DNA of 41,071 bases. It comes from Pirellulales bacterium (GTDB lineage: Bacteria > Planctomycetota > Planctomycetia > Pirellulales > JADZDJ01). Under the pieces are notes generated by a model. The model was not told the DNA's origin and ran no database searches. It saw nothing but the letters and a program-made list of their open reading frames with translations. Location: the NCBI GenBank assembly GCA_035656635.1, contig DASRSD010000019.1:1-41071 (forward strand), read 5' to 3'. Positions 2,201 to 29,792 of the stretch are shown here, piece after piece. The stretch's first letter is position 1, and each line of letters starts with the position of its first letter. Both the position numbers and the translations under genes were made by a program.

Positions 2201-3406
2201 ATGGCAACTGCGATGGGCATCTCAACGAACTTACCGGCCATTCTCGGAGGTCAGCCGGCATTTGAACAATTGGTTCCGATCGTTCGTCCCACTCTGCCAC
2301 CGTTTAGCGAACTTTCCACAGAGCTTGCTGAGATTGTTACTTCCGGCATGGTTACCCGAGGCCGACATCTACGGGCCTTCGAAGAAGCCGCCGCGGAACA
2401 TTTAAGAGTCAAGCACGCCGTGGCTGTTTCCAGCTGCACGACGGGCTTGATGCTTACCTATCAGGGCTTGGGGTTGACGGGAGACATCATTGTTCCCAGC
2501 TTTACTTTCATGGCCACAATTAGCGCTGCCGTTTGGGCAGGCTTACGGCCGGTTATGGTCGATGTCGAACGTCATACCCATAACATTGATCCGGCAGCCA
2601 TTGAGCAGGCCATTACTCCTGCCACCCGAGCCATTGTGGCGGTGCACAACTTTGGAAATCCGGCCGACATTGCTGCCTTGGAACAAATCGCCAAGCGGCG
2701 GAATCTGAAATTGGTGTTTGACGCAGCCCATGGATTCGGCGCACGGTTTCAGGGAGTGCCTGTTGGTCCGCAAGGTGACGCACACGTGTATAGCTTGAGC
2801 CCCACCAAGTTAGTTGTCGCAGGCGAAGGGGGAATTGTCGCCACGAATTCAGACGAGTTGGCGGAAAAAATTCGCTGTGGCCGCGAATATGGTATGGGGA
2901 AGGCTTACGACAGTCTGTTCGCCGGCATCAATGCCCGCATGAGCGAATTCCACGCCTGCTTGGGTCGGCATAGTTTGGTATTGCTGGAAAAGCATGCGAG
3001 CCGCCGCCAAGAAATTGTGGCGCTCTTCCGCCGCGAATTAGGCCGACTTCCCGGCATCGGTTTCCAGGAAGTGCTGCCCGGCAATCGCTGCTCCTACAAG
3101 GATTTCTCGCTGACGGTAGACTCCGCAGCATTTGGGCTTTCGCGTGATGGATTAGCCAAAGCGTTGACGGCCGAGAATATCGATACGCGAAAATACTACG
3201 ATCCGCCGGCGCATCGCCAAACTGCATACCGCCAATTCGCTCCTCCGGCCGGCCAATTGAAAGTTACCGATTTGCTCGCTGCTTCGTGCTTAAGCTTGCC
3301 TTTATGGTCGCATCTGACGGACGAAATTGCTCTGCAAATCTGCCGCGCCTGCCAGCGCATTCACGATGCCGCGGAAGATGTCAAAACGCATTTGGCAGCT
3401 CAATAG
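2201..3406 (+). CDS. DegT/DnrJ/EryC1/StrS-family PLP-dependent sugar aminotransferase
   Basis: A 401-residue protein of normal length for the family, which transfers an amino group (usually from glutamate) to a keto-sugar nucleotide. Visible marks are the family's N-terminal block, the SSCTTGL cofactor-phosphate segment (about 77-83), the FDAAHGFG motif with Asp174, which contacts the pyridine nitrogen, and SLSPTKLVVAGEGG, whose Lys203 would form the Schiff base. The usual SFH(A/P)TK is here SLSPTK. The final domain ends with the typical CLSLPLWSHLTDEI block. The ATG at 2201 has an AGAGGA ribosome binding site about 5 bases upstream. As first intact gene of the + locus it probably supplies an amino sugar. 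The exact substrate cannot be read from the sequence. Confidence 0.92.
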   Translation: MATAMGISTNLPAILGGQPAFEQLVPIVRPTLPPFSELSTELAEIVTSGMVTRGRHLRAFEEAAAEHLRVKHAVAVSSCTTGLMLTYQGLGLTGDIIVPSFTFMATISAAVWAGLRPVMVDVERHTHNIDPAAIEQAITPATRAIVAVHNFGNPADIAALEQIAKRRNLKLVFDAAHGFGARFQGVPVGPQGDAHVYSLSPTKLVVAGEGGIVATNSDELAEKIRCGREYGMGKAYDSLFAGINARMSEFHACLGRHSLVLLEKHASRRQEIVALFRRELGRLPGIGFQEVLPGNRCSYKDFSLTVDSAAFGLSRDGLAKALTAENIDTRKYYDPPAHRQTAYRQFAPPAGQLKVTDLLAASCLSLPLWSHLTDEIALQICRACQRIHDAAEDVKTHLAAQ

Positions 3407-3481: not shown

Positions 3482-5026
3482 ATGTTTAAAGCCACCAATG
3501 GAAAAGTCACGCCGGCGATGTTTTTGCGCATCTTCGCCGATGTGCTAATGGTGCAATTCTCGCTGCTGACGGCAATCTCGCTGACCTGGTTTTGCCACGT
3601 GCTCTTGGGAGATCTATCGCCCGATAAAAAACTATCGCAACATTTTTGGATTATGATCGGCGGGTACGCCGATGCAGCCTGGCCGCTGACCTTAATTTGC
3701 GTGGCGGTTTTTTACCTCAATGGCTTTTACACGTACGGCCGGTTTTATCAGGGCCGTTATAAAGCGCTCATTGTCCTGCAGGCGGTTTGCCAAAGCTATT
3801 TGATCTACGGCTGCGTCCATTATGGATTTCAGTTGGGAGAATTGACGTTCTCTCGCACCGCGTTTGTTATTTCGTGGATTTTGACGGCTGTGCTGTTAAT
3901 TGGTTCGCGCGTGTGGCTCCATATTTGGAAAACGATTGCCGATCCAGAACGCGATCGGGTTTTAAGCGCGCGTCGAGGCCAAGGCAAAAATGTCTTGGTC
4001 ATCGGAGGAGCAGGCTATATTGGTTCCGCTTTATTGCCCAAGCTGCTCGCCAGCGGCTATCGCGTGCGGTTGCTCGATTTGTTGCTGTATGATACCGAGC
4101 CCATCGACTCGGTCCTGGGCCATCCGAATTTGGAAGTGGTGCAGGGAGACTTCCGCCATGTCGGCAAAATTGTGGAAGTCATGCAGGACATCGACTCGGT
4201 GGTGCACTTGGGCGCCATTGTCGGTGACCCGGCCTGCGAACTGGATCGGGAACTGACGACGGAAGTGAACTTGTCGGCTACGCGCATGGTGGCCGAGGTT
4301 GCCCGATTATGCGGCGTAGAACGCTTTGTGTTTGCCAGCACCTGCTCTGTTTATGGTGCTTGCGATGAAGTGCTGGACGAGCGTTCCAATACACGCCCGG
4401 TTTCGCACTATGGCAACACGAAGCTGGCTGCAGAACGGGTGCTGCGGCAAATGGCCGACGACCGCTTTGCTCCTACCATTCTGCGCTTTTCCACGATTTA
4501 CGGCCTGTCCGGCCGTACGCGATTCGACTTGGTCGTCAATCTGCTGACTGCCAAGGCGAAAATCGACGGCCAAATTACCGTGATGGGAGGCAACCAGTGG
4601 CGGCCCTTTGTGCACGTCGACGATGCCGCTTTGTCCGTGGCCACGGTGCTTGCCGCTCCCCGAGAATTGGTCGGCAACGAAATGTTCAACGTCGGCTGCG
4701 ATGCGCAAAACTATACCATCAAGCAGATCGGCGAGATTGTTCATCAACACGTGCCCGGCGCCGAATTAATTATTGACGAGAAAGACACCGACCGCCGCAA
4801 CTACCGGGTCAGTTTTGCGAAAATTTGCAATTATTTGAATTTCGAGCCGCAGTGGACGCTGGAACGCGGCATTGAGCAAGTTCTGGAAGCGATTGCGCGC
4901 GGCGACATCACGGATTACCGCGATGCCAAATACAGCAACGTTAAGTTCTTGAGCACTCAAGGCACCGAACGATTGAGCCGCAGCACCTGGGCCCACGAAA
5001 TGCTTAAAGAAATCACGTCGAGTTAA
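3482..5026 (+). CDS. Membrane-anchored NAD-dependent sugar epimerase/dehydratase (TM domain plus extended SDR)
   Basis: 514 residues in two parts. Residues 1-150 carry about four hydrophobic helices (near 14-42, 62-82, 95-117 and 124-148). Their spacing and a closing FSRTAFVISWILTAVLLIGS segment resemble the N-terminal membrane domain of CapD/FlaA1-type dehydratases and polyprenyl glycosylphosphotransferases. Residues 168-514 form an extended SDR enzyme: the NAD-binding GGAGYIG (175-181), the ASTCSVYG serine block (285-292) and the catalytic Tyr310 and Lys314 (YGNTK). The SDR half looks GalE/NAD-epimerase-like rather than CapD-like, so this is a fusion of two modules. It probably acts on a UDP- or dTDP-sugar at the inner face of the membrane. 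An upstream GAGGAAGG (3463-3470) is a good ribosome binding site for the ATG at 3482. Confidence 0.85.
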   Translation: MFKATNGKVTPAMFLRIFADVLMVQFSLLTAISLTWFCHVLLGDLSPDKKLSQHFWIMIGGYADAAWPLTLICVAVFYLNGFYTYGRFYQGRYKALIVLQAVCQSYLIYGCVHYGFQLGELTFSRTAFVISWILTAVLLIGSRVWLHIWKTIADPERDRVLSARRGQGKNVLVIGGAGYIGSALLPKLLASGYRVRLLDLLLYDTEPIDSVLGHPNLEVVQGDFRHVGKIVEVMQDIDSVVHLGAIVGDPACELDRELTTEVNLSATRMVAEVARLCGVERFVFASTCSVYGACDEVLDERSNTRPVSHYGNTKLAAERVLRQMADDRFAPTILRFSTIYGLSGRTRFDLVVNLLTAKAKIDGQITVMGGNQWRPFVHVDDAALSVATVLAAPRELVGNEMFNVGCDAQNYTIKQIGEIVHQHVPGAELIIDEKDTDRRNYRVSFAKICNYLNFEPQWTLERGIEQVLEAIARGDITDYRDAKYSNVKFLSTQGTERLSRSTWAHEMLKEITSS

Positions 5027-5127
5027 TCGCGCCGCGATGGGAACATACAACCTCATTTAAACCGTGATTTCTCGCCAGTCGCTTGATCCAACCTGGTGAT
5101 TTAATCTGCTTACGGAGTGAACCAGCT

Positions 5128-5793
5128 GTGCGCGTTTTGGTGGTGGCACCCCATCCGGATGACGAAATTCTCGGTTGCGGCGGGGTCATGGCACGACATG
5201 CTGCAGAGGGAGACGAAGTGCACGTGGCAGTGGTCACGCGCGGCGCTCCGGAAGTGTATCAAGCTGAAGAAGTTAATCAAACGCGTGCGGAACTCAAGCA
5301 GGCCCACGACGTGCTAGGGGTCAAAAGCGTTCGCTACCTCGATTTCCCCGCGCCTCGAATGGATACAATTCCCCGCCATACCGTGGCGGACGCAATCCGG
5401 CGGCTCGTTGCCGAATTGACGCCCGATACCTTGTATGCGCCTCACTATGGCGACATGCACTTCGAACATGGCTTGACCTACGAAGCGTGTCTCGTCGCAA
5501 CGCGACCCGTCGGTAAAATAAAGGTGCGTCGTGTGCTCGCTTACGAGACGCTGTCGGAAACCGAATGGGGTCCGCCGGTCTCCGGAAGTGCTTTTCAGCC
5601 CACGGTGTTCGTGGACATTGGACCTTATTTGCCGAAAAAGCTCGCCGCCATGGCGTGCATTAAAAGCCAGTTGTTTACCCCGCCGCATCCCCGCTCGCTG
5701 GCCAATTTGGAGGCTTTGGCCACACTCCGGGGCAGCACCGCGGGTTTGTCAGCTGCCGAGGCGTTTATGCTGGTACGCGAAATCATCGCCTGA
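5128..5793 (+). CDS. PIG-L (LmbE-like) family deacetylase
   Basis: A zinc-dependent de-N-acetylase family, acting on GlcNAc-type sugars, pseudo-glycans or antibiotics. I start at the GTG at 5128 because GGAG lies about 10 bases upstream and the protein then begins VRVLVVAPHPDDEILGCGG, as the family usually does; an in-frame ATG at 5083 would add 15 residues of no family match. With that start it has 221 residues. His9, Asp12 and Glu13 of the HPDDE motif and the later DMHFEH block (Asp109, His111, His114) supply the expected metal and catalytic residues. Sitting between an aminotransferase/epimerase pair and acyltransferases, it may free a sugar amine so that another acyl group can be attached. 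That role is inference. Confidence 0.88.
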   Translation: MRVLVVAPHPDDEILGCGGVMARHAAEGDEVHVAVVTRGAPEVYQAEEVNQTRAELKQAHDVLGVKSVRYLDFPAPRMDTIPRHTVADAIRRLVAELTPDTLYAPHYGDMHFEHGLTYEACLVATRPVGKIKVRRVLAYETLSETEWGPPVSGSAFQPTVFVDIGPYLPKKLAAMACIKSQLFTPPHPRSLANLEALATLRGSTAGLSAAEAFMLVREIIA

Positions 5794-5868
5794 ACCACCT
5801 TTCAGCGGACGATGCGGACATATCGTGATTGTCAACTTTCCGACTACTGAACGATTTGAAAACGAAAT

Positions 5869-6516
5869 ATGCGGCTTGGCTTAGAGTTAATTGTCGTTGG
5901 CGCAGGGGGTCACGCGAAGGTCGTCATTAGCTCCTTACGAGCAAGTGGCTGGGAAGTTCGCGCTGTCTATGACGATGATCGCAAGAAATGGAATCGAAAG
6001 ATCATGGGAATCAACATCGAGGGCCCCATCGAAAAGCTGAGTGAACCGGATCACTTTCCGGCAGTAATTGCCGTCGGAGATCCGCTTTTTCGACAATATT
6101 TGGCAGAACGCTATGATCGAGATTGGGTCACCGTTCTCCATCCGCGTGCGTATGTTGATGCCACGGCGACGGTGGGGCCAGGAAGCGTGGTATTTGCCGG
6201 CGCCATAATTCAGCCCGATGTGGTCATTGGTGCACATGCGATTATCAACACGTCGGCCAGCATCGATCATGACTGCGCTATTGCGGACTATGCTCACATG
6301 GCGCCCGGCGCGCACCTGGCAGCGAACGTACATGTGCAGCGCGGGGCTTTTTTAGGTACCGGCGCACACGTGATTCCTGGCATCACGATTGGTGAATACA
6401 CGATTGTAGGCGCAGGTTCTACTGTGGTCCGGGACATCCCGGGGCATGTAACCGCGGTTGGCTGTCCAGCCAAAGTCATCAAAACCAATCCCTTGCGAAC
6501 ATTCCCGAAGTCATAG
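5869..6516 (+). CDS. NeuD/PglD-type sugar O- or N-acyltransferase (1)
   Basis: 215 residues, the standard length. The N-terminal Rossmann-like domain begins LELIVVGAGGHAKVVISSL (nucleotide-sugar binding, GAGGHAK) and the C-terminal half is a left-handed beta helix of hexapeptide repeats (for example VGPGSVVFAGAIIQPDVVIG). The catalytic base is His134 in SIDHDC, as in PglD and NeuD. The protein would transfer an acyl group, usually acetyl from acetyl-CoA, to a sugar amine or hydroxyl. It is followed after 3 bases by an acyl carrier protein gene, so an ACP-bound donor should be considered. The ATG at 5869 has no clear Shine-Dalgarno sequence. Confidence 0.9.
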   Translation: MRLGLELIVVGAGGHAKVVISSLRASGWEVRAVYDDDRKKWNRKIMGINIEGPIEKLSEPDHFPAVIAVGDPLFRQYLAERYDRDWVTVLHPRAYVDATATVGPGSVVFAGAIIQPDVVIGAHAIINTSASIDHDCAIADYAHMAPGAHLAANVHVQRGAFLGTGAHVIPGITIGEYTIVGAGSTVVRDIPGHVTAVGCPAKVIKTNPLRTFPKS

Positions 6517-6519
6517 CCC

Positions 6520-6780
6520 ATGATGAGTCAAAACGCGGATATCCGAGGGACGGTGGAGAAGGTCATTCAACAAGTGCTGGCCAGTTCCGGGCGTTCCGCG
6601 CAATCCTTACAGGACCAAGATTTGCTGTTTTCAAAAATCGGTCTCGACTCGCTCGACTTAGCCCAAGTCGTGGTCATTTTGGAGTCTGAGTTAGGCGTAG
6701 ACCCATTTTGGAAAAGTGGGGAACCGATCCGTACATTTGGAGATTTAGTGCAGGCATACCAATCGGCTCGGCAATCTTGA
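6520..6780 (+). CDS. Acyl carrier protein (1)
   Basis: 86 residues with the phosphopantetheine attachment motif GLDSLDL; Ser44 would carry the 4'-phosphopantetheine arm. The four-helix pattern is typical up to residue 59, after which the sequence FWKSGEPIRTFGDLVQAY is more divergent than in a fatty-acid ACP. The gene begins 3 bases after the preceding acyltransferase, with two adjacent ATG codons (6520, 6523) as possible starts. A stand-alone ACP inside a glycan locus suggests a carrier-bound acyl donor for sugar modification. It lacks the DSLD-V-E context of housekeeping AcpP (here DSLDLAQVVVILE), so it is a dedicated paralogue rather than AcpP. Confidence 0.88.
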   Translation: MMSQNADIRGTVEKVIQQVLASSGRSAQSLQDQDLLFSKIGLDSLDLAQVVVILESELGVDPFWKSGEPIRTFGDLVQAYQSARQS

Positions 6781-6849
6781 AATATAACTTTCTGCTACAA
6801 AATCTGCTTCCACTTGGAGACGGTTCGTGCACTCAACCGCTACTTTTAT

Positions 6850-7497
6850 ATGTACGATCTGATCATTGTAGGCGCGGGCGCTTTTGCCCGAGAAGTGCGC
6901 CAATTCGTGCCACACAGTTTTCCCTATCGATCGGTAAAGATGAAAGGCTTTTTGTCGAATAATCCGCAAGATTCCGAAAAGTTCAGTCTACCAGAACCCA
7001 TCTTGGGCGATCCGGAACAATACCTACCTGAACAAAACGATCGTTTTCTGTTAGCCATCGGCGATATTCGAGATCGTCGACGAATAACCCATGTGCTTAA
7101 ATCCCGGGACGCGAAATTTCTCACGCTGATTCATCCAACGGCATTTATTGACAGCACTGCCGAACTTGGAGAAGGCTGCATTATTTATCCATTTGCCACT
7201 ATTATGAATGAAGCCCGAATCGAAGATTTCGTAATGATGAACATCTATTCCTCCGCGGGTCACGACACGCAAATCGGCCAGTATTGCAATCTTTCTCCCT
7301 ACGCCACGATGAATGGATTTAGCGTTTTGGATGACGATGTATTCCTCGGAACCCATGCCAGCGTGCTGGCCTATAATCGTGTAGGACGGGGCTCGAAAGT
7401 CAGCGCCAACTCCGTGGTCACTCAGAATGTCGGTCCGTCGACTTTGGTGTTTGGCGTGCCCGGCCGGCACATGCCGTTGATTTCGCACCGAGGATAA
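6850..7497 (+). CDS. NeuD/PglD-type sugar acyltransferase (2)
   Basis: 215 residues from the ATG at 6850, chosen because the protein then begins at the Rossmann strand MYDLIIVGAGAFAREV; a TTG at 6814 would add 12 unmatched residues. No strong ribosome binding site is visible. The second half contains hexapeptide repeats, and His138 in SSAGHDT is the expected catalytic base. It is clearly a paralogue of the acyltransferase at 5869, but diverged, so the two probably act on different sugars or positions. It sits between an ACP gene and an FkbH-like gene, supporting a possible ACP-bound acyl donor. Confidence 0.87.
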   Translation: MYDLIIVGAGAFAREVRQFVPHSFPYRSVKMKGFLSNNPQDSEKFSLPEPILGDPEQYLPEQNDRFLLAIGDIRDRRRITHVLKSRDAKFLTLIHPTAFIDSTAELGEGCIIYPFATIMNEARIEDFVMMNIYSSAGHDTQIGQYCNLSPYATMNGFSVLDDDVFLGTHASVLAYNRVGRGSKVSANSVVTQNVGPSTLVFGVPGRHMPLISHRG

Positions 7498-7521
7498 TTG
7501 CTCAACTGCGCAACTGATTTC

Positions 7522-9252
7522 ATGGCCTTACAACTTAAGCGAATCGCGATTCTCTGCTCATTCAATCTGGATCTCCTCAAACGGCCATTGAGCGAGGTCT
7601 TGGCACAAGCTGGGGTGAAGTCGGAACTTTACTTCACAGGCTACGGCCTGTGGGAACCGGAAGCGCTTGATCCACAGTCGCCGCTGCATCAGTTCGCCCC
7701 GGAGTCAGTTGTCTTGTTTGCCGACGCGGCAGATGTGCTTCCGCCGTTGCATCCAGGCGATCAATTGTCGCGACGCGCCGATGCACCGGCCGCTGCCGGC
7801 GCTGTCTGGCAACGATTGACGACCGTTATCAACGGCCTGCTGGCGAATTTGCCGCAACAGTCCACGCTGCTAGTTCATAATTTTGTGTTGCCGCGTCTGA
7901 GCGCGCTGGGCACGCTGGAAGACAATGCGGGACTTTCCGCCGGCGCGACGTTGAACATCTTGAACGATCAACTCCGCGCCCTGGCTGAATCGAACCCTCG
8001 GGTACGCATTATCGATTATGCGAACTTTGTGGCGGAATATGGGCGAAACACCTTATTCGACAATCGGCTGTGGTACTTGGGCCGGATGCACTTTGGCCGT
8101 GGGGCTTTGAACCACGTGGCAGCGCTTTACGCCCGATACCTCGCGGCGCTGTTCACGCCACGCCGAAAGTGCTTAGTCCTGGATTTGGACAACACGCTGT
8201 GGGGCGGCGTGCTCGGAGAGGATGGCCCGCAGGGAATTGCCCTGGGGCAGGAAGGCATTGGCCTGGCATTTCGCGAATTTCAACTAGCCATTTTGGCATT
8301 GGCGCAGCGGGGCGTGATCTTGGCGGTGGCCAGTAAAAACAACCCTGCGGATGCCTGGGAAGTGATCGATCGGCATCCGGAAATGATCCTTCGCCGCCAG
8401 GACTTTGCGTGTTTGGAAATTCATTGGAATCCCAAATCTGAGTCGCTGCCGCGGATTGCGGAAACTTTGAATCTTGCTTTGGATAGCTTTGTGTTTTGGG
8501 ATGACGAACCCCGGGAACGAGAAATCGTTCGGACCCAACATCCGGCTGTGTTCGTTCCAGAAGTTCCGGCTGACCCGTCGGAATATGCCCGTGCGTTACT
8601 CAACCTGGACTGCTTCGACGTGTTGAATTTAACCGACGAGGACCGCCGCCGCGGAAAAATGTATCATCAGGAAGCCGATCGGCAGCAGTGGCTCACTGCA
8701 GCGTCGGCGACTAATCTGGGAGAATTCTACCGCTCGCTGAACATGACGATCTGCATTGCGCAACCCGATGCCTATGCGGTGCCGCGTTTTGCACAATTGA
8801 CACAACGCACCAATCAATTTAATTTTACGACGCGTCGCTACACAGAGGGAGATATTCGAGCCAAATTATCCGATCCGTCGTTCGGCCTGTATACAATCAG
8901 CCTGGAAGATCGTTTCGGCAAGCTGGGCCTCATTGGAGCGGCAATTGTTGAGCGGCAAAACAAGGCTTGGTTGTTGGATACGTTTTTGATGAGCTGCCGA
9001 GCGCTCGGCCGCGGCGTGGAAGACGCTTTTTTATCAATGCTTGCGACCGAAGCGGCAGATGCGGGCTTGGCATTGCATGGCACGTTTATTTCCACCAAAA
9101 AGAACGTTCCAGCGCGGCAATTTCTCGAGCGACTGAAGATTCAGCTCCAGGCAGTGGGCGAGGAAAATTTCACATTTCAGATTGATCCTGCACACGTCGC
9201 ATTTCCTTCATGGATCGGCAAACAGGACGGGAGCAATTCGAATGGGCACTGA
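7522..9252 (+). CDS. FkbH-like HAD-IIIC protein (candidate glyceryl-ACP synthase)
   Basis: 576 residues from the ATG at 7522; a TTG at 7498 in the same frame is less likely. Three regions are visible: an N-terminal SGNH-like part (residues 1-210), a HAD-IIIC domain with the nucleophile motif LVLDLDNTLWGG (Asp221, Asp223) and later VFWDDEPRER, and a C-terminal GNAT-like part around NQFNFTTRRY and SCRALGRGVEDAFL. FkbH relatives in polyketide pathways take 1,3-bisphosphoglycerate, remove a phosphate and load a glyceryl group on an ACP. This one overlaps an ACP gene at its 3' end and follows an ACP and NeuD-type transferases, so it may load such a group for transfer to a sugar. The domain call is firm; the substrate is inference. 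Confidence 0.88.
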   Translation: MALQLKRIAILCSFNLDLLKRPLSEVLAQAGVKSELYFTGYGLWEPEALDPQSPLHQFAPESVVLFADAADVLPPLHPGDQLSRRADAPAAAGAVWQRLTTVINGLLANLPQQSTLLVHNFVLPRLSALGTLEDNAGLSAGATLNILNDQLRALAESNPRVRIIDYANFVAEYGRNTLFDNRLWYLGRMHFGRGALNHVAALYARYLAALFTPRRKCLVLDLDNTLWGGVLGEDGPQGIALGQEGIGLAFREFQLAILALAQRGVILAVASKNNPADAWEVIDRHPEMILRRQDFACLEIHWNPKSESLPRIAETLNLALDSFVFWDDEPREREIVRTQHPAVFVPEVPADPSEYARALLNLDCFDVLNLTDEDRRRGKMYHQEADRQQWLTAASATNLGEFYRSLNMTICIAQPDAYAVPRFAQLTQRTNQFNFTTRRYTEGDIRAKLSDPSFGLYTISLEDRFGKLGLIGAAIVERQNKAWLLDTFLMSCRALGRGVEDAFLSMLATEAADAGLALHGTFISTKKNVPARQFLERLKIQLQAVGEENFTFQIDPAHVAFPSWIGKQDGSNSNGH

Positions 9253-9478
9253 ATTCCTGCGAAAACTTGTAGCCGAAACGCTGCAGTTACCACTGGATGC
9301 AGTTCCCACCGATGCCAGCAGCGAAACGCTAGAAGCATGGGACTCGCTCCGTCACTTGGAGATAATTATGGCGGTCGAAGCGGCCACGAATATTGTATTT
9401 CCGACCGATGAGATTGTTGAGTTAACGTCGCTCGACCAGCTACATGCGGCATTGATCCGTCACGGCTGGAAACCATAA
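9242..9478 (+). CDS. Acyl carrier protein (2)
   Basis: 78 residues; the attachment motif is WDSLRHLEI with Ser35 as the phosphopantetheine site. This WDSL form is the one often seen in ACPs paired with FkbH-like or secondary-metabolism enzymes, unlike the GLDSLDL form of the first ACP. The ATG at 9242 lies 11 bases inside the FkbH-like gene, which implies coupled translation and a working pair. The frame is open further upstream, but only inside the FkbH gene. Confidence 0.88.
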   Translation: MGTEFLRKLVAETLQLPLDAVPTDASSETLEAWDSLRHLEIIMAVEAATNIVFPTDEIVELTSLDQLHAALIRHGWKP

Positions 9479-9750: not shown

Positions 9751-11184
9751 ATGGCGCTAGAGCCTTCCAACGTCGAAGCGAACTCCACTCCCGGTGCGTT
9801 AGCGACGGGTTTTGCTGGGGCCAGCTCGATAAACGATATTTTGAGTGTGCCGACTCGAGGACTGCGCGCCAATGCTACTTGGATTCTCGTCGGCAATACT
9901 GTGCTTGCTGGAGCACGCCAACTGATCTTCGTCTTAATTGCCAAGCTTGGAAATCCTGAAATGCTAGGACAGTACGGCTGGGCAGTGGCTTTTTGTGTCC
10001 CCACGGTAACGATATGTAGCTTTGGCATCCGAAGTTTGCTGGCTACCGATGCCCGTCGAGAAGTGAAATTTAGTGAATATTTGGGTTTTACGCTCGTTTT
10101 TTCTGTAATTGGTCTGTTGATTGTAGCGGGCATGATTCTGATCAATCGTGCTGATGGCTATACCGTCACTTTGGTGATGCTGGTGACGATTTGGACTTCC
10201 TTAGAATCGATCAGCGATACATTTGCCGGGCTGTTTACACGAGATGAACGCATGGATTTGCTGGCGAAGGCTTGCATCTTTCAGGCGGTGCTGATTTGCG
10301 TCTTCTTAACCGCTGGATTGGCCATCGGAAAAGATTTGCGTTGGGGTGTCCTGGGCTTAATCGGCGCCGCCTTCCTGCGACTCGTGGGATACGAGTGGCC
10401 CAATGCAAGCAAACACTTCAAAGTCAGCGGGCTCGAACCTGCGCACGATACCGGACTGATAGGCTCGCCGATTTTTCCTCAGTTCCATTGGAAAGCGTAC
10501 CGCCATCTGCTCTCCGCGGGCATATGGCTCGCAATTCTGTTGTACCTCTTGACGCTCTGCGATGCAATTCCCCGATATTTAATTAAGGATCAGCTTGGTG
10601 ATGCTGCCGTTGGCGTGTTTACCGCTCTGTTTTCAGTCTCCTTGGTGGTGAATCTGCTGGTCATTTCGATTTGTCAATCGATGAGTTCGCGATTGGCTGT
10701 TTTGTTTGCAACGAACCAGCGCACCGCCTTCTTACGCCTGTGCGTCCGTTCCATCATCGTGTCCGTCAGCGTGGGATTGCTGGCATTGGCTGGATCTTAT
10801 TTCGTCGGCAAACCCGTGTTGGCGATTGTATTTACACCGAAATATACCGAAGAAATGGGGCTATTCTACATCCTGCTGTTGACGACTATTATTAATTGTG
10901 TGTCCAACATCACGGGCACAGCCATAACTTCCATGCGCCGCTTTGCGATTGTAGTTCCGGTTTATCTGATCCGGATTGCAATCGTTTATTTTGGTGGGTT
11001 ATGGGCCATTCAACGAGCTGGGCTGCAAGGTATAGGATGGATATTAGTTGCCGCATCAGCTTTCCAATCCCTGTGTCACGCATTAATCATTTTCAACGCC
11101 CTGCCATCTGGTCATCCAGCACCTCGACCATTTGATGCTTGTAGCGACGATTTAGCAACTATCAGCCCTCGGAGTTCTCGATGA
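9751..11184 (+). CDS. Polysaccharide flippase (Wzx/MOP family membrane protein)
   Basis: 477 residues, about 12 membrane helices. The N-terminal segment ANATWILVGNTVLAGARQLI and the internal GQYGWAVAFCVPTVTICSFG are typical of Wzx-like O-unit or exopolysaccharide translocases of the MOP superfamily, which flip lipid-linked repeat units across the inner membrane. Length and helix spacing agree with the family. The stop overlaps the next ATG by 4 bases (ATGA at 11181), so the methyltransferase is probably translated with it. The presence of a flippase together with a candidate polymerase (15484) favours a Wzx/Wzy assembly route rather than an ABC route. Confidence 0.85.
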   Translation: MALEPSNVEANSTPGALATGFAGASSINDILSVPTRGLRANATWILVGNTVLAGARQLIFVLIAKLGNPEMLGQYGWAVAFCVPTVTICSFGIRSLLATDARREVKFSEYLGFTLVFSVIGLLIVAGMILINRADGYTVTLVMLVTIWTSLESISDTFAGLFTRDERMDLLAKACIFQAVLICVFLTAGLAIGKDLRWGVLGLIGAAFLRLVGYEWPNASKHFKVSGLEPAHDTGLIGSPIFPQFHWKAYRHLLSAGIWLAILLYLLTLCDAIPRYLIKDQLGDAAVGVFTALFSVSLVVNLLVISICQSMSSRLAVLFATNQRTAFLRLCVRSIIVSVSVGLLALAGSYFVGKPVLAIVFTPKYTEEMGLFYILLLTTIINCVSNITGTAITSMRRFAIVVPVYLIRIAIVYFGGLWAIQRAGLQGIGWILVAASAFQSLCHALIIFNALPSGHPAPRPFDACSDDLATISPRSSR

Positions 11185-11906
11185 CGACGCCTCAGTATCA
11201 AGAGCATCCCATCTGCTGGACGCGAGAGCTTTCTAGTCGATTTTGGGATTTCTATTCACGCAAGCCGACCCTCACATACTTTAGCGCAGAGGTTTCGAAT
11301 GGAATCATCAATAATGTGTTACGGAATGGTGTTCCCTTAAGGGGAAAGGTTCTGGATTTCGGTTGCGGCCGGGGCGATTTGTTGCAAAATCTCACGAATC
11401 GCCGGATCGCGTGCGAAGGAGCGGATTTTTCTCCCGAGTCGGCGCGCGAAGTCGAACGCAAACTTCGGGGGAACCCCTATTTCCGAGGCGTCACGATAAT
11501 TGACGGCATTCCTACACAGCTCCCGGGGAATAGTGTTGATGTCCTATTTTGTATTGAAACCGTCGAACATATTTTGGACGACGAATTACTGCCGTCCATG
11601 CAGGAAATCCATCGTTTGCTCCGCAGCGGTGGATATCTCATCGTGACTACCCCCAATGACGAAGATTTGGATAAGAACAAAATATTGTGTCCCGAGTGTG
11701 GTTGCATATATCACACGGTCCAACATGTGCGCTCTTGGAGTAAAGACTCCTTGGAAGCCTATTTGAGCCCGCTCGGTTTCAAAACGATTTACTGCGGAGC
11801 CACAGTTTTTGACAATTCGAGAACTTGGTCGCTTCTGCTTCGAATTGCATTTCACCTACGCCATCGTACCCTGCCTCACCTCATTTACATCGGGCAAAAG
11901 ATTTAG
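11181..11906 (+). CDS. SAM-dependent methyltransferase with Cys/His knuckle
   Basis: 241 residues. The SAM-binding motif VLDFGCGRGD is at 57-66, followed by the acidic GADFSPESA block and the SVDVLFCIETVEHI motif of class I enzymes. Beyond the core lies CPECGCIYHTVQHVRSW, a Cys-x2-Cys ... His ... His arrangement seen in a subgroup of glycan-locus methyltransferases; it might bind a metal. The gene overlaps the flippase stop by 4 bases. It probably methylates a sugar or a cap of the glycan; the exact position is unknown. The stop is followed by a 200-base gap before asnB, which contains a GGGG-CCCC hairpin but no clear promoter. Confidence 0.85.
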   Translation: MTTPQYQEHPICWTRELSSRFWDFYSRKPTLTYFSAEVSNGIINNVLRNGVPLRGKVLDFGCGRGDLLQNLTNRRIACEGADFSPESAREVERKLRGNPYFRGVTIIDGIPTQLPGNSVDVLFCIETVEHILDDELLPSMQEIHRLLRSGGYLIVTTPNDEDLDKNKILCPECGCIYHTVQHVRSWSKDSLEAYLSPLGFKTIYCGATVFDNSRTWSLLLRIAFHLRHRTLPHLIYIGQKI

Positions 11907-12106
11907 CTCGGTGCGTGTGAATGCGATTGCACTAAAAACCGCGGTGGGTGCGTGCCGCATTCGTTGTATGGATGGGGCACGGGGTCGGCCCCTAATTCCG
12001 TTCGCCTTGGGTCAGTCATCAAGAATACAATTGTCCGATTCATGCGCCACCGCCTAGCTGGCGTAAATTGGGATACAGCCATTAAACATCGAGCCGGATT
12101 CACCTC

Positions 12107-13984
12107 ATGTGTGGAATTTGTGGATTGGTTTTCCGAGATCCCCGTGTGCAGCCCGAAGTGGAAACACTTCGTCGGATGGCGGCTACGATCCGCCATCGCG
12201 GTCCGGACGACTGTGGCGTACAGGTCTTAGGCAGCGCCGGATTGGGTCATTTGCGCTTGGCGATTATTGACCTCTCGCCAGCCGGACATCAACCGATGGC
12301 GAACGAAGACAATACGGTTTGGATTGTCTTCAATGGCGAAATATACAACTTCGCCGCATTGCGGCGAGAGCTTGAAAGCCGACATCAATTCCGTTCCAAA
12401 ACAGATACCGAAGTTCTCATTCACCTTTATGAAGAAGAAGGTGAACGGATGGTCGATCGGCTAGACGGAATGTTTGCCTTTGTAATTGTCGATCTCAAAC
12501 AGCAACGGATACTTCTGGCGCGCGATCCCTTTGGAATTAAACCGCTATTTTATGCGTTGGATGATCGACGGTTAGTCTTTGGCTCCGAGATCAAGCCGCT
12601 ATTGGCTTCCGGAGAGGTCAATCGAGATATCGACATTAGCGCACTGAACGATTATTTTGACTTTGACTGGATTCCAGCTCCCAAATCAATCTTCCGCGAT
12701 GTTCGGAAGCTTTTGCCTGCGCATACCATGTTGCTTGACATGGCCTCCTGGCAGGCGAGCTTCCGGCGTTATTGGCAGCCGCAATACCGCCCGGAAGAAG
12801 GTCGTTCGCTCGACTCTTGGGCCGATGAAGCCGAAACTGTGCTTTCGACGGCGGTCCGCCAGCACATGGTGGCGGATGTTCCCGTGGGCGCCTTTCTGAG
12901 CGGCGGAATTGATTCCACACTCGTTTCGCTCTATGGCAGCCAATCCAGCGAAGCGCCATTGCGTACTTTTACCATCGATTTTGACGATCAAGCTTTTTCT
13001 GAGGCTCCATTTGCCCGGCAAGTTGCGAACCAAATTCACTCGCAAGCTATTTTTCGTCAGTTGCCTGGCGAATCCGTCGATCACCTGCCTCAACTTGCCA
13101 CCTATTACGACGAACCTTTCGCTGATGCCTCCTTGCTTCCTACCTATGCAGTGAGTCGTGAAGCACGCAAAGAGGTTACTGTCGCTCTGTCAGGCGATGG
13201 TGGAGATGAACTTTTCAGCGGCTACCTCCATCACCGCTGGGCCAACTATCTTAGTCGTCTCGATCTGCTTCCCGCCACAGTTAGTCAGCCGCTGTTTGGT
13301 ATGGCGGCTAAACTGACGCCTCGGCATCTGAGGCTTCATAATCTGTTTCGCAGGATGAGCTTGTCTCCCGTTTTGCGACGGCTCTCTGTGGTGCGCCTAC
13401 CGGCCCAAGCCATGCGATCTCGCCTGTTAGCTCCAGAGATTCGCGAACCGGCGCAACAACGATATTGGCATTGGAATAAGTATCATGACGAATTGGCTGG
13501 GCTGCCGCCAGTGACTCAGGCTCAGTTCTACGACTTACTTTTATATTTGCCCAATGATATGTTGGTAAAGGTAGACCGCGCCAGCATGGCCCACTCTCTT
13601 GAGGTTCGCGTTCCGATGCTTTGCCGGTCCGTAGCCGAATTCGCTTTTCGCATTCCTGAAGAGACTCGGTTTGAAAGTGGGAACGAAAAGCGGGTATTGC
13701 GCCACCTCACCGCTCGTCATTTTGGAAATAAACTCGCCTATCGTCCCAAGCAGGGTTTTGGCATCCCGCTGAAGCGCTGGATGAGGCAATACCTAGCAAC
13801 TGGTGGCCAACAGAAAATTATGGACAGCCGTTGTTATAAAAGCGGTTATCTCGATCCTCAAGGCGTACAGCAGATGATCAAAAAAGTCAATCTAGGCGCA
13901 AACCGCTGGGTAACTCACCACCGCGCAGACGAATTATTTGCGCTATTAGTTTTGATCGCTTGGTGGGATCAATACCTGGGATGA
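12107..13984 (+). CDS. asnB: Asparagine synthase (glutamine-hydrolysing) family amidotransferase
   Basis: 625 residues. The N-terminal Ntn glutaminase begins MCGICGLV, so Cys2 (after Met removal) is the nucleophile; RHRGPDD follows at about 30. The synthetase half has the PP-loop SGGIDS (265-270) and the GDGGDELFSGY motif, both intact, so both half-reactions appear possible. In AsnB proper, aspartate is amidated with ATP. AsnB relatives in polysaccharide loci have been proposed to amidate uronic acids (WbpS in Pseudomonas). A UDP-HexNAc-type dehydrogenase and an epimerase lie downstream, which supports a sugar-amidation role here, but an ordinary asparagine synthetase cannot be excluded. The start is fixed by the Cys2 requirement; no strong Shine-Dalgarno sequence is visible. 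Confidence 0.9.
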   Translation: MCGICGLVFRDPRVQPEVETLRRMAATIRHRGPDDCGVQVLGSAGLGHLRLAIIDLSPAGHQPMANEDNTVWIVFNGEIYNFAALRRELESRHQFRSKTDTEVLIHLYEEEGERMVDRLDGMFAFVIVDLKQQRILLARDPFGIKPLFYALDDRRLVFGSEIKPLLASGEVNRDIDISALNDYFDFDWIPAPKSIFRDVRKLLPAHTMLLDMASWQASFRRYWQPQYRPEEGRSLDSWADEAETVLSTAVRQHMVADVPVGAFLSGGIDSTLVSLYGSQSSEAPLRTFTIDFDDQAFSEAPFARQVANQIHSQAIFRQLPGESVDHLPQLATYYDEPFADASLLPTYAVSREARKEVTVALSGDGGDELFSGYLHHRWANYLSRLDLLPATVSQPLFGMAAKLTPRHLRLHNLFRRMSLSPVLRRLSVVRLPAQAMRSRLLAPEIREPAQQRYWHWNKYHDELAGLPPVTQAQFYDLLLYLPNDMLVKVDRASMAHSLEVRVPMLCRSVAEFAFRIPEETRFESGNEKRVLRHLTARHFGNKLAYRPKQGFGIPLKRWMRQYLATGGQQKIMDSRCYKSGYLDPQGVQQMIKKVNLGANRWVTHHRADELFALLVLIAWWDQYLG

Positions 13985-20117: not shown

Positions 20118-21434
20118 ATGCCCGATCTCAGCTCCGCAATCTTGAAAAAGTCCGCCACGGTCGGCGTCATTGGTTTGGGATATGTCGGAATTCCGCTGAT
20201 TCAAGCATTTGTCAAAGCCGGATATAGCACGATGGGCTTTGACATCGATTCGACCAAAGTCGATCGGCTTTTGGCAGGACAAAGCTACATCGGGCACATT
20301 CCATCGAGTTGGATCAGCGAATGCATTCAATCGCAGCGTTTTGTGCCCACTGCCGACATGCAGCGGTTAAAAGAAGCCGACGCCATTTTGATTTGCGTGC
20401 CGACGCCGCTGAATGAAAGTCGCGATCCTGATCTAAGCTATATCGAAGCCACAGCACGCCAAATTGCCGCAGTCCTCCGGCCAGGACAACTCATTGTCCT
20501 CGAAAGCACTACCTATCCCGGCACTACGCGCGATGTCGTGCTGCCCATTTTAGCCGCCACCGGGTTGAAACCTGGACAAGATTTTTTCTTGGCTTACAGC
20601 CCGGAACGAGAAGACCCAGGTAACCCGAACTATACGGCCAGTGCAATTCCCAAGGTCGTCGGCGGCATCGATCCGGGTAGTTCTGAATTGGCCCAGTCAC
20701 TCTATCGCCAAGCGGTGGTGCAAGTAATTCCGGTAAGCAGTTGCGAAGTAGCCGAGGCCTGCAAAATTCTCGAAAACACGTACCGTTCGGTGAATATTGC
20801 CATGGTGAATGAATTGAAGGTGTTATTCGACCGCATCGGAATCGACGTGTGGGATGTCATCGACGCTGCCAAGACCAAGCCGTTTGGCTTTCAGGCGTTT
20901 TATCCAGGGCCCGGGCTGGGCGGACATTGTATTCCAATCGATCCGTTTTATTTGAGTTGGGTGGCTCGCAAGCACGGAATGATCACACGCTTTATTGAGC
21001 TGGCCGGAGAAATCAACACCGGAATGCCACTTTACGTCATTAGTCGGCTGATCGAGGCCTTGAACAATGTCGGCAAACCAGTGCGGGGAAGTAAAATTGG
21101 CCTGCTTGGCGTTGCCTACAAGAAAGACGTTGACGACCCACGAGAAAGCCCGTCGTTCGAATTACTGGAAATGCTCATGGCGCGTGGAGCGATCCTAAGT
21201 TATAACGATCCGCATGTTCCACGAATGCCTCAAATGCGCCATCACCGTTTGCCAGAAATGCACAGCCAAGCTCTCACGGCCGAATATTTGGCAGCCCAAG
21301 ATTGTGTCTTGATTGCGACCGACCACTCGGCATACGACTACGATTTTATCGTACAACATTCCCGCTTGGTGATTGACACGCGGAATGCTACGCGGCATGT
21401 TCGCCAGGGTAGGGAGAAGATTTGCAAGGCTTAA
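20118..21434 (+). CDS. UDP-N-acetylhexosamine-type 6-dehydrogenase (nucleotide sugar dehydrogenase)
   Basis: 438 residues. The NAD-binding motif GVIGLGYVGIPL is at about 15-26, and GPGLGGHCIPIDPFYLSW contains the catalytic Cys271. The segment SPEREDPGNPNYTASAIPKV is the form found in WbpA/WecC/WbpO-type enzymes (UDP-GlcNAc or UDP-ManNAc or UDP-GalNAc oxidation) more than in UDP-glucose dehydrogenases. It would perform two successive NAD-dependent oxidations to a UDP-uronic acid. The ATG at 20118 follows a weak pyrimidine-rich leader. Its 3' end is followed after 88 bases by a UDP-uronate 4-epimerase-like gene. Confidence 0.92.
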   Translation: MPDLSSAILKKSATVGVIGLGYVGIPLIQAFVKAGYSTMGFDIDSTKVDRLLAGQSYIGHIPSSWISECIQSQRFVPTADMQRLKEADAILICVPTPLNESRDPDLSYIEATARQIAAVLRPGQLIVLESTTYPGTTRDVVLPILAATGLKPGQDFFLAYSPEREDPGNPNYTASAIPKVVGGIDPGSSELAQSLYRQAVVQVIPVSSCEVAEACKILENTYRSVNIAMVNELKVLFDRIGIDVWDVIDAAKTKPFGFQAFYPGPGLGGHCIPIDPFYLSWVARKHGMITRFIELAGEINTGMPLYVISRLIEALNNVGKPVRGSKIGLLGVAYKKDVDDPRESPSFELLEMLMARGAILSYNDPHVPRMPQMRHHRLPEMHSQALTAEYLAAQDCVLIATDHSAYDYDFIVQHSRLVIDTRNATRHVRQGREKICKA

Positions 21435-26158: not shown

Positions 26159-26506
26159 TCATGCCGTCTCTTCGTGCAACTCCAGCAAATGCCCGGCCGG
26201 ATCGCGCAAATAGGCCGCCCGGCCCCAATCGTAATTTCGGGCGGGGATTTCAACAGCAATTCCCCTCTGTCCGAGTTCTGCGACTGCCTCATCCAGATTG
26301 CTTACCGCAAAGCCCACATGATTTTCGCAGGGCGGCCATTGCGGCTCGGGCTGGTAAAGCTTGTGAATGAGAAGCTGCACGCCAGCCTCTCTAAAAATTG
26401 CTATGCCTTCGTCGCGAAACACGGGCTTGGCATTCAACAGCCGCTCGTAGAAATTCACTACGGCATCTACCTTGTCGGTAAAGATTGCCCGTTCGCAGAG
26501 CTTCAT
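26159..26506 (-). CDS. VOC-fold (glyoxalase/bleomycin-resistance family) protein
   Basis: 115 residues with a single VOC module of paired beta-alpha-beta-beta-beta units. The second half carries [20 protein letters not shown], and the end ([17 protein letters not shown]) holds the usual Glu-type metal ligand region. Family members are metal-dependent lyases, isomerases or dioxygenases, or antibiotic-binding proteins; the substrate is unknown. The ATG overlaps the galE stop by 4 bases, so it is translationally tied to the galactose operon. It could handle a reactive aldehyde by-product, but this is speculation. Confidence 0.85.
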
Positions 26507-27507
26507 GTATTCTCCCGTTTGGGCTTTCCACTATAACCGTGCGGGTTTTTTTTGTGCCAGTTCCATGCCGATTCAATAATGCTGTGCAGCTCCGGATATT
26601 TCGGCTGCCAGTTTAACTCTTTGCGGATTTTTTCGCTGCTGGCAATCAACACTGCCGGGTCCCCTGGCCGGCGCGCGCCATTCTGAACCGGAATTGCGTG
26701 GCCGGTGATTTTACGTGCCGTTTCAATCACTTGCTTCACGCTGAAACCTTGCCCATTGCCCAAGTTATAGACGCGACTTTTCTGGTCGATGGCTTTCATC
26801 GCCAGAATATGGGCTTGGGCCAGATCAGCCACGTGAATGTAATCTCGTACACAGGTTCCATCCGGCGTGGGATAGTCGCTGCCAAAAATCGTAACCGATT
26901 CGCGTTGCCCCAGCGCCACTTGCAGCACAATCGGAATGAGATGCAACTCGGGATGATGGTCTTCGCCCCGCTCCGCCGTGGCGCCCGCCGCGTTGAAGTA
27001 TCTCAGGGCAGCGTAGCGCAGCCCGTGAATTTTATCCAACCAATACAGCATGCGTTCTAAAATGAATTTCGATTCGCCATACGGACTGCCCGCCACAAGC
27101 TGTTCGTCCTCATCAATGGGCATTTTTTTCGGCGCATCGAACAAATTGGCCGTGGACGACAAAATGAATTTCTTCACGCCATACTGCACCATGCTTTGCA
27201 GCAGGTTCAAGCCATTGGTTACGTTTTCCCCAAGATATTGAAACGGATGCTTCATCGATTCGCCCACTAAAGTGTGCGAAGCAAAATGCATGACCGTGTG
27301 CGGCTTGTGCTGAGAAAGTGCTTGATCGATAGCCGTCCGATTCGCCAGATTGCCTTCGATGAGCGTGGCCTGAGGATGAACGGCTTCCCGGTGGCCTTGA
27401 TACAAATTGTCGAACACGACAACTTGTTCTCCCGATTGCACCAATTGCTCCACAACCACGCTGCCAATGTAACCCGCGCCGCCTGTCACAAGAACCGACA
27501 TTCGCAT
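26503..27507 (-). CDS. galE: UDP-glucose 4-epimerase
   Basis: 334 residues, the normal length. The NAD-binding GGAGYIG is near residue 9, followed by [39 protein letters not shown] (Tyr and Lys of the catalytic pair) and LRYFNAAGA, all typical of GalE. It interconverts UDP-glucose and UDP-galactose. The usual SSAAVYG is here [10 protein letters not shown]. Position supports the call: the ATG follows the galT TAA directly (TAAATG), galT follows galK with an ATGA overlap, and the VOC gene overlaps its stop. The internal Met at codon 3 is a second possible start. Confidence 0.95.
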
Positions 27508-28557
27508 TTACCCTTCTTTGGATTCTGAAAGTTCACGCAAGCGCTGGGCTGCCTGCTCGGGAGTTAAATCACGCTGCGCTTCGGCCAGCATTTCATAGCC
27601 GACCATAAATTTTTTGACGGTCGCCGAGCGCAACAGAGGCGGATAAAAATGTGCGTGCAACTGCCAATGAAACCAATCTCCCGCCGCCGTCGGTGCGCCG
27701 TGCCAACCCATCGAGTAAGGAAAGGAGGTTTCAAACAGTTGATCGTATTTGCTAAGCAGCCGTTTGAGTGCGTCGGCCAAAGCAGCGCGCTGCACTGCAT
27801 TCAAATCGGGCAGGCGCAATACCGCTTGCCGAGGCAAGAGCAGCGTTTCGAACGGCCATGTGGCCCAATACGGCACTACGGCCACCCAGTGTTCGTTCTC
27901 AACGACAATTCGTTGCTGCTGCTCTTGTTCGAGTTGCAAGTAATCTAAAAGCAGCTTAGTACCGTGCCGCTGCAAATAGTCGCGCTGCTGCTGATCTTCC
28001 TTGGCCGGCTCGTTAGGCAATTGATTGCTGGCCCAAATTTGGCCGTGGGGATGAGGATTCGAGCAGCCCATCACCTCTCCCTTATTCTCGAAAACTTGCA
28101 CCCAGCGATAGGTTTTTCCCAGTTCTTCGATTTGCTCCGACCACACGTCGATTACTTTCCGAATGTCCGCGAGCGGCATTTTCGGCAACGTGAGATCATG
28201 CCGCGGCGAAAAGCAAATGACCCGGCACGTTCCGGCAACATTCTCACGCCGTAGCAAACCTTGGGTCGGAGAATCCTCTTGTGCCAAGCCGCTTGCGCCC
28301 GCAGGCGCAAACTCCGGCAACAGCGCTGGGAAATCGTTTGTGAACACAAACGTTTCGGTATATTTTGGATTCTGCACTCCCGCGGCACGGGCGTTTCCAG
28401 GACAAAGATAGCAAGTTGGATCGTATGGTGGGTAGTTATCGGCTGCCACGCTTTCGCGCTTTCCCTGCCACGGTCGCTGGGTGCGATGCGGCGAAACCAA
28501 TATCCAATCGCCGGTCAGCGCGTTCAATCTGCGATGAGGATGGTCTTGAACATTCAT
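27508..28557 (-). CDS. galT: Galactose-1-phosphate uridylyltransferase
   Basis: 349 residues. GalT swaps UMP between UDP-glucose and galactose-1-phosphate. The active-site motif [10 protein letters not shown] has His169 and His171, the second being the expected nucleophile. CYLCPGN (Cys49, Cys52) gives the zinc-binding pair, and the late HAHFYPP block supplies the further histidines. The ATG overlaps the galK stop by 4 bases (ATGA) and the stop codon abuts the galE ATG, so expression should be coordinated. No unusual feature is seen. Confidence 0.95.
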
Positions 28558-29792
28558 AACGGCCGGCTGGGAAAAGCTCGAGCGCCTTGCGCCGGTCGGC
28601 TGGTGAACAGCGCTGGCTTAATGCCCGTTTGTTTGTGGTAGCGGTCGTAAAGCAGCTGCGCAACATTTGCCGCCGCACTGCTCTTCACCAGGCTGACGGT
28701 GCAGCCGCCAAAGCCGCCGCCCGTCATGCGGGAGCCGATTACGGCTCCGTCTTGGCCAATTTCCTGAGCCAAAGCAACCAGCAAATCTAACTCTGCGCAA
28801 CTAACTTCGTAATCATCACTCAGCGAATTGTGGCTGGCGTACATTAACTGTCCCACTTCGTTCCAGCGGCCCGCGCTAATGGCCAAGGCAGCTTTTTCGG
28901 TCCGGTCAATTTCCCCGATCACATGGCGCGCGCGACGGTAGTTTACGTTTCCCAGTTTGTCTCGCGCTGCTTCCAAGTGTGCCACGGTTGCATCGCGCAG
29001 TGTATCCACGCCCAATACTTTAGCCGCCGCCTCGCATTGAACACGACGTTGGGCATATTCGCCGCCGGTCAATTCGTGCTTGACGTTGCTATTGGCGATC
29101 AGCACGGTGACATCGGCAGCAGTAAACGGGACGAGTTTTGCTTGTTGCGATCGGCAATCCAACAGCATCAAATGATCGGCGGTGCACAGCACACTGCTGA
29201 ATTGATCCATTATTCCGCAGGGCACGCCGGCATATTGATGTTCTGCTTCCTGGCACAACAGCGCTTTTTGCACTGGCTCCAGCGATTTGCCGAGCATCGC
29301 CTCCAAAAGCGTGGCGGTGGCCACTTCCAAGGCTGCGCTGCTCGATAATCCTCCGCCCAACGGCACATTGGACAGAATCACGGCCTCGAAGGCCGGCACG
29401 CTAAAGCCGCGCGCCACAAAACCCGCGATTACCCCCTGCACGTAGCTGGACCAAGTAACTGGGCCGGGCGAAATTTTCCCCGCCACTTGCAGCGTTGCAG
29501 CTTCCTGCTTGTTCATGCTGAAAACGCTTGCGGCTGGTTGGCCATCGCCGCCGCGGTGATCTGTCGACTTGGCTGCGGCAATCACCACGTACCGTTCAAT
29601 CGCCATCGGCAACACAAATCCGCCGTTATAATCGGTGTGCTCTCCGATGATGTTGACCCGCCCAGGCGCAATCGCCAGATACTGTGGCTCACGCGAATAC
29701 CGTCGGCGGAATTCATTTGCCGCTTCTTCCCGAAGTTGGTCCGCGGAATTGGTAGCCGTCTCAAGTGCTGCAATTGCTTCTGGCATATTCAT
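28554..29792 (-). CDS. galK: Galactokinase
   Basis: 412 residues, a GHMP-family kinase making galactose-1-phosphate from galactose and ATP. Signature [15 protein letters not shown] is at 44-58, the phosphate-binding [15 protein letters not shown] near 147-161 and [12 protein letters not shown] near the end. It is somewhat longer than the usual 380-390 residues, the excess being a C-terminal tail with [15 protein letters not shown]. The family start cannot be decided between codons 1 and 3 (ATG AAT ATG). It is the first of the galK-galT-galE-VOC chain; a 130-base gap separates it from the upstream inositol-phosphatase gene. Confidence 0.95.

Follow-up and report, generated by a model that had tools for sequence, protein, structure and literature searches.

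Which enzyme takes up an acyl group held on a dedicated acyl carrier protein (ACP), and where the acyl group goes, is the question raised by a six-gene cassette in a 41,071-nucleotide stretch of a Pirellulales genome (contig DASRSD010000019.1 of GenBank assembly GCA_035656635.1, hereafter the window). The six genes, PIG-L, NeuD1, ACP1, NeuD2, FkbH and ACP2, all lie on the + strand, behind genes for a DegT-type aminotransferase and an SDR-type enzyme (SDRm) and ahead of a Wzx-type flippase. A first-pass annotation, made from the letters of the window, had proposed that the set frees a sugar amine, loads a C3 acid onto an ACP and hands it to the sugar; the genes, their order and the 11-base overlap between FkbH and ACP2 that it described are all borne out by gene calls and family scores. 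We propose, with a probability of about one half, that the cassette joins two acyl-ACP lines and that NeuD2 would be an ACP-dependent PglD-type N-acyltransferase using them, glyceryl-ACP2 included. Family scores, conserved motifs and the gene order kept in a congener together exclude a chance origin of the cassette.

FkbH (7522..9252, + strand, alternative start 7498) reaches 318 bits with TIGR01686 (cut-off 146.65), contains FkbH_N and is the single match to TIGR01686 in the whole genome. Since the congener protein begins with MALQ, its start points to the ATG at 7522. The HAD motifs are intact, i.e. DLDNT (residue 221 of the 576-aa form), SKNN, the motif-III Lys and DD. The N-terminal two thirds, an SGNH-like domain followed by a HAD-IIIC phosphatase, match 3slr (BF1531 of Bacteroides fragilis), and the C-terminal part matches GNAT folds, a pattern as expected for a phosphatase and acyl-transfer protein. 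A Cys in an SCR motif (alignment position 500, corresponding to Cys492 in the 576-aa form) is invariant across 11 sequences and would be the acyl carrier, as reported for OzmB. ACP2 (9242..9478, + strand, PF00550) is of the WDSL type. Its carrier Ser is intact, as is that of ACP1, with which it shares 10% identity.

FkbH is usually paired with a carrier. A survey of 80 FkbH loci over bacteria and archaea, with a radius of 2.5 kb and uniform placement as expectation, finds an ACP in 63 of them (67 ACP genes against 25 expected). Hexapeptide acyltransferases are also enriched (24 genes, 11.1 expected, z 4.7), while DegT (2 against 5.4) and SDR genes (10 against 9.3) show no excess within this radius. 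The intact motifs, the adjacency of ACP2 and the frequency of ACP genes beside FkbH support both the earlier suggestion that FkbH loads glyceryl onto an ACP and the assignment of FkbH-ACP2 as a genuine glyceryl-ACP-type pair with ACP2 as dedicated carrier. The acid loaded would quite probably be glyceryl.

Concerning the acyltransferases, both NeuD proteins exceed the TIGR03570 cut-off (160.8 bits) with PglD_N plus the LbH helix, NeuD1 (5869..6516, + strand) with 213 bits and NeuD2 (6850..7497, + strand, alternative start 6814) barely, with 163.8 bits and 27.5 bits for PglD_N. The active-site His is intact in both, His134 of NeuD1 and His138 of NeuD2 being aligned with His141 of PerB, the residue replaced in 4eaa. 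The best PDB match of NeuD1 is the perosamine N-acetyltransferase 4ea7 (E 2.9e-41). NeuD2 has diverged much further, with a best E of 1.1e-17, and its model is closest to PerB, WeeI and the acetyltransferase domain of PglB. Structures of PglD and PerB in the PDB carry coenzyme A (CoA), according to the entry titles. NeuD1 is probably a canonical, ordinary PglD/PerB acetyltransferase dependent on acetyl-CoA.

The two proteins also belong to different classes by their N-terminal motif, which is GGHAKVV in NeuD1 and PerB-like proteins and GG(F/C)GREV in the NeuD2 kind (GAFAREV in the NeuD2 of the window itself). In a sample from the order, 18 of 19 GREV-class NeuDs lie no more than 2.6 kb from ACP, AMP-ligase or KAS genes, the remaining one being near a contig end, whereas none of six HAKV-class NeuDs without a GREV partner in the locus does (p 2e-4 in the more cautious table); these counts are our own tally, and the rows are not independent, because part of the sample was selected by similarity to NeuD2. 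The association supports, without proving, an ACP as the donor of NeuD2, which we consider likely. In the C-terminal helix, VSAN in place of VGAG was considered as a mark of ACP dependence and dropped, as it holds for NeuD2 orthologs and not for other ACP-linked NeuDs. The proposal that the NeuD-type proteins are ACP-fed transferases would hold for NeuD2, of the ACP-linked GREV class, and is unlikely to hold for NeuD1, which is PerB-like and replaced in the congener.

This replacement is seen in locus L038 of the congener (G018), with the order DegT-SDRm-PIG-L-ACP1-NeuD2-FkbH-ACP2-Wzx, where the slot of NeuD1 (3886-5573 of that locus) is taken by two other genes, for a PylC-like ATP-grasp enzyme and for a HAD hydrolase. 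A related genus shows DegT-SDRm-...-NeuD1-ACP1-NeuD2 in a locus lacking FkbH, ACP2 and PIG-L, and FkbH has no match in that genome. From these two arrangements NeuD1-ACP1-NeuD2 and FkbH-ACP2 separate into two modules, and gene order indicates that FkbH-ACP2 is the second one, added in the genus of the window. NeuD2 is the sole acyltransferase besides FkbH that is kept adjoining FkbH-ACP2 in the two species of this genus, which is why glyceryl-ACP2 is favoured as a donor for NeuD2.

ACP1 (6520..6780, + strand) is of the LDSL type (GLDSLDLAQ), scores 23.8 bits with PF00550 (cut-off 20.8) and is 38-53% identical to those ACP1s of relatives that adjoin NeuD2 or an AMP-ligase. Elsewhere in the order, in other families, the genes appear as ACP1-ligase-FabG-NeuD2 (three loci), NeuD1-ligase-FabG-NeuD2 (L175 and L177), NeuD1-ACP1-FabG-NeuD2 and ACP1-FabG-NeuD2 (one locus each). 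The ligase-FabG pair is unlinked from the cassette in the genome of the window, in the congener and in the related genus. In the first of these an AMP-ligase plus FabG operon (L193: 8104-10388, G000:C140) is orthologous to the pair flanked by ACP1 and NeuD2 elsewhere, so that the four-gene acyl module ACP1/AMP-ligase/FabG/NeuD2, as defined in this analysis, is complete in that genome. Over 292 genomes the AMP-ligase is present in 36 of the 37 with a strong NeuD2 match (threshold about 140 bits, fixed after inspection of the list) against 66 overall (p 1e-26), and in 7 of 8 genomes with NeuD2 outside the dominant family (p 3e-7), p-values which the relatedness of the genomes inflates. ACP1 is the partner of NeuD2 and would also be that of the unlinked AMP-ligase and FabG. 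The idea that both carriers serve FkbH was rejected, since ACP1-NeuD2 is found where FkbH is absent and ACP1 appears to belong to the AMP-ligase/FabG pathway.

Seven distant loci carry ACP-KAS-FabG or ACP-FabG-ligase-KAS-ACP upstream of a GREV-class NeuD. Across loci the donor module varies while the NeuD class stays. Four loci (L174, L176, L178 and L256) have the arrangement NeuD1-ACP-FabG-AMP-ligase-KASIII-ACP-(SDR)-NeuD(GREV), which resembles a short type II pathway that would build the acyl chain for a sugar.

Among the 80 FkbH loci, many of the acyltransferases near FkbH lack a PglD_N domain and GREV-class NeuDs are only a minority. NeuD(GREV)-ACP-FkbH stands behind DegT in Ruminococcus, Clostridiales and Lachnospiraceae, and also in G255, which represents another family of the order; a sugar transferase is interposed (checked in Ruminococcus and G255). 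No ligase or KAS was found within 2.6 kb in these four loci, where NeuD-ACP-FkbH is the only acyl machinery seen. On the FkbH tree the linkage to a GREV-class NeuD needs 6 changes, at least 3 of them forced by well-supported branches, and it therefore probably arose more than once.

In ammonia-oxidising archaea (three loci) an FkbH-ACP-AcpS-type phosphopantetheinyl transferase (PPTase) operon occurs together with a hexapeptide acyltransferase; one of them, L070, comprises FkbH (9923-11677), ACP (11677-11916), a MaoC-like gene (11909-12346) and the PPTase (12356-12715), with a polysaccharide deacetylase upstream. Four archaeal members of the control set gave no match to PF01648. The operon is a carrier-protein route, probably for sugar decoration. 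An AcpS-type PPTase also adjoins FkbH in six further loci (at 0-28 bases, or about 1 kb in L104), whose hosts are Nanoarchaeota, Micrarchaeota, Thorarchaeota, Methanospirillaceae, Dehalococcoidia and Doudnabacteria.

The proposed mechanism considers two lines meeting at one enzyme. The SDR and DegT enzymes would provide a nucleotide-activated amino sugar. In the first line FkbH would remove the phosphates of 1,3-bisphosphoglycerate and pass the glyceryl group, via its C-terminal domain, to ACP2, while in the second the unlinked AMP-ligase and FabG-type reductase would charge ACP1 with another acid, for which a 3-hydroxyacyl group is a candidate. As a left-handed-helix enzyme of the PglD type, NeuD2 would draw its acyl groups from the ACPs, not from acetyl-CoA, and transfer them to an amine of the amino sugar. 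PIG-L might free a second amine beforehand, a role in freeing a sugar amine that is a guess, and NeuD1 would probably acetylate the other amine. The linkage is likely to be N- rather than O-. That NeuD2, and not another enzyme, takes glyceryl-ACP2 is an evenly balanced proposition. More tentatively, FkbH-ACP might be a widespread and largely undescribed feed by which bacteria and archaea bring glyceryl from glycolysis to their surface sugars, ACP-dependent acyltransferases making the transfer, with one PglD-type enzyme using two ACP lines in the genus of the window and the same sugar bearing glyceryl or another acid; of this wider picture as a whole we are doubtful.

Several points weigh against NeuD2 as the acceptor of glyceryl-ACP2. 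Its fold is that of acetyl-CoA enzymes, and for its helix the monomer model is of low confidence (pLDDT 69.6, with a weak stretch at residues 105-152). ACP1, not ACP2, is its conserved partner, therefore NeuD2 may not accept glyceryl-ACP2. Polysaccharide clusters readily change which genes they link, and NeuD2 and FkbH share a locus only in the genus of the window. The first-pass annotation had made its case depend on conservation outside this genome: the order is kept in the congener and FkbH-ACP-acyltransferase linkage recurs in distant taxa, whereas the co-occurrence of NeuD2 with FkbH over the order is not significant (7 of 37, p 0.08). The confinement of the shared locus to this genus, the persistence of ACP1-NeuD2 without FkbH and the dissimilarity of the two carriers feed the main rival, in which the lines are independent, NeuD2 using ACP1 only and glyceryl-ACP2 being used elsewhere in the genome by an O-acyltransferase, a lipid pathway or a small-molecule pathway. 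We regard this as a serious possibility, if a rather less probable one, since in both species FkbH-ACP2 follows NeuD2 immediately within the operon and, elsewhere, a GREV-class NeuD and FkbH's own ACP are the only acyl machinery seen beside FkbH.

The fold and the TIGR03570 scores, together with the CoA in the PglD and PerB structures, would suit two acetyl-CoA enzymes placing two acetyls on two amines; the ACPs would then work with FkbH, or in fatty acid-like chemistry, independently of the NeuDs. This is unlikely for NeuD2, whose orthologs adjoin ACP, ligase or KAS genes nearly always and which tracks the AMP-ligase even where the two are unlinked. The reverse assignment, with NeuD1 attaching glyceryl and NeuD2 working with ACP1 only, draws on the presence of NeuD1 in the same operon and on the ATP-grasp enzyme in the congener slot, since glyceramido sugars of Neisseria come from an enzyme of this type. 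It is nevertheless disfavoured and very improbable, because NeuD1 is most like the CoA-using PerB and the congener, where the ligase replaces it, retains FkbH-ACP2. A polyketide destination, methoxymalonyl or tetronate, with the polysaccharide cluster a neighbour by position only, would agree with the characterised role of FkbH (PMC7489565) and with three S-adenosylmethionine (SAM) methyltransferases downstream of the cassette. Among the annotated cluster genes (Pfam of neighbours), however, there is no ketosynthase, KAS, polyketide synthase (PKS), FabH, FkbG/I/K-type set or ligase. Of the two dehydrogenases and the O-methyltransferase expected beside FkbH-ACP for methoxymalonyl-ACP, both dehydrogenases are absent from the neighbours, as are the FabH-like ring-forming enzyme and the PKS of tetronate glycerate utilisation from the annotated cluster genes. 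FkbH-ACP2 is moreover enclosed by NeuD2 on one side and the flippase on the other in two species, and this destination was rejected as scarcely credible.

The cassette would serve acyl decoration in a Wzx-type polysaccharide cluster. Upstream, the DegT/DnrJ/EryC1 sugar aminotransferase (2201..3406, + strand, PF01041 338 bits) supplies the acceptor side, i.e. an amino sugar, in an order matching that of the congener and the related genus. It is followed by SDRm (3482..5026, + strand), with N-terminal hydrophobic segments and an NAD-dependent epimerase/dehydratase domain (PF01370 156 bits, residues 171-405), which accompanies DegT in more than one family of the order. The PIG-L/LmbE-type deacetylase (5128..5793, + strand, alternative start 5083; PF02585 92 bits) shows both zinc motifs of its family, HPDDE and HxxH (HFEH), and is retained in the congener and in L175. 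Behind ACP2 the Wzx-type flippase (9751..11184, + strand, PF01943 47 bits) makes the cassette a member of a polysaccharide export cluster, which continues on one strand throughout with the methyltransferases, an AsnB-type protein, glycosyltransferases, a UDP-sugar dehydrogenase (20118..21434, + strand, PF03721 and PF00984) and an epimerase. Adjoining the cluster, galE-, galT- and galK-like genes, read by eye, lie in a row on the minus strand (26503-29792). No RNA family of Rfam was matched in the window.

ACP-carried glyceryl chemistry is known from antibiotic making and almost undescribed for surface sugars. If the proposed reading is true, FkbH plus a WDSL/WDSF-type ACP plus a hexapeptide acyltransferase would be a gene signature by which glycans decorated with glyceric acid could be recognised in bacteria and archaea, and among the NeuD/PglD "acetyltransferases" the GGHAKVV proteins would form a CoA class and the GGFGREV proteins a probable ACP class, allowing better prediction of many surface-sugar structures.

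Among known systems, the loading step has its precedent in methoxymalonyl-ACP and tetronate pathways, where glyceryl loading of an ACP by FkbH is accepted, e.g. Mad7/Mad8 and Mad14/Mad12 (PMC7489565). The cassette likewise has an FkbH domain protein with a stand-alone ACP and the conserved motifs, but it lacks the oxidation/methylation trio and a FabH-like or PKS partner, and lies in a polysaccharide cluster with sugar N-acyltransferases. An FkbH-domain gene in a glycan locus is also found in Campylobacter jejuni, whose flagellin glycosylation locus contains cj1302 (PMC7099621) and whose flagellin glycan bears di-O-methylglyceric acid on pseudaminic acid (PMC3068675), the gene and the acid not being known to be linked. 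Methyltransferases occur in the window too; the acceptor in C. jejuni is a nonulosonic acid, and the likeness concerns the FkbH gene and the glycan. In Neisseria, exchange of PglB (NeuD-type acetyltransferase) for PglB2 (ATP-grasp domain) among close relatives turns an N-acetyl into an N-glyceramido amino sugar (PMC11130364), which resembles, in kind, the exchange of NeuD1 for an ATP-grasp enzyme between the window and the congener; the glyceryl route via ATP-grasp is separate from FkbH and ACP. For the transfer itself there are the R-group genes wfpC-G for the O-polysaccharide of Flavobacterium psychrophilum, where the PglD homologue WfpG is predicted to move a short hydroxyacyl group from the ACP WfpD to the 4-amine of UDP-Qui2NAc4N (PMC6519341). 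There, as in the cassette, a PglD homologue would be fed by a dedicated ACP and the transfer step is a prediction; it differs in that the acyl group is 3,5-dihydroxyhexanoyl, built through type II fatty-acid-like steps with ketosynthases and a ketoreductase alongside, whereas the cassette has FkbH as the putative glyceryl source and a second ACP line with AMP-ligase and FabG. Compared in this way, the arrangement in the window would be an acyl module of the PglD type that is fed by ACPs, with FkbH as one donor and another donor line beside it.

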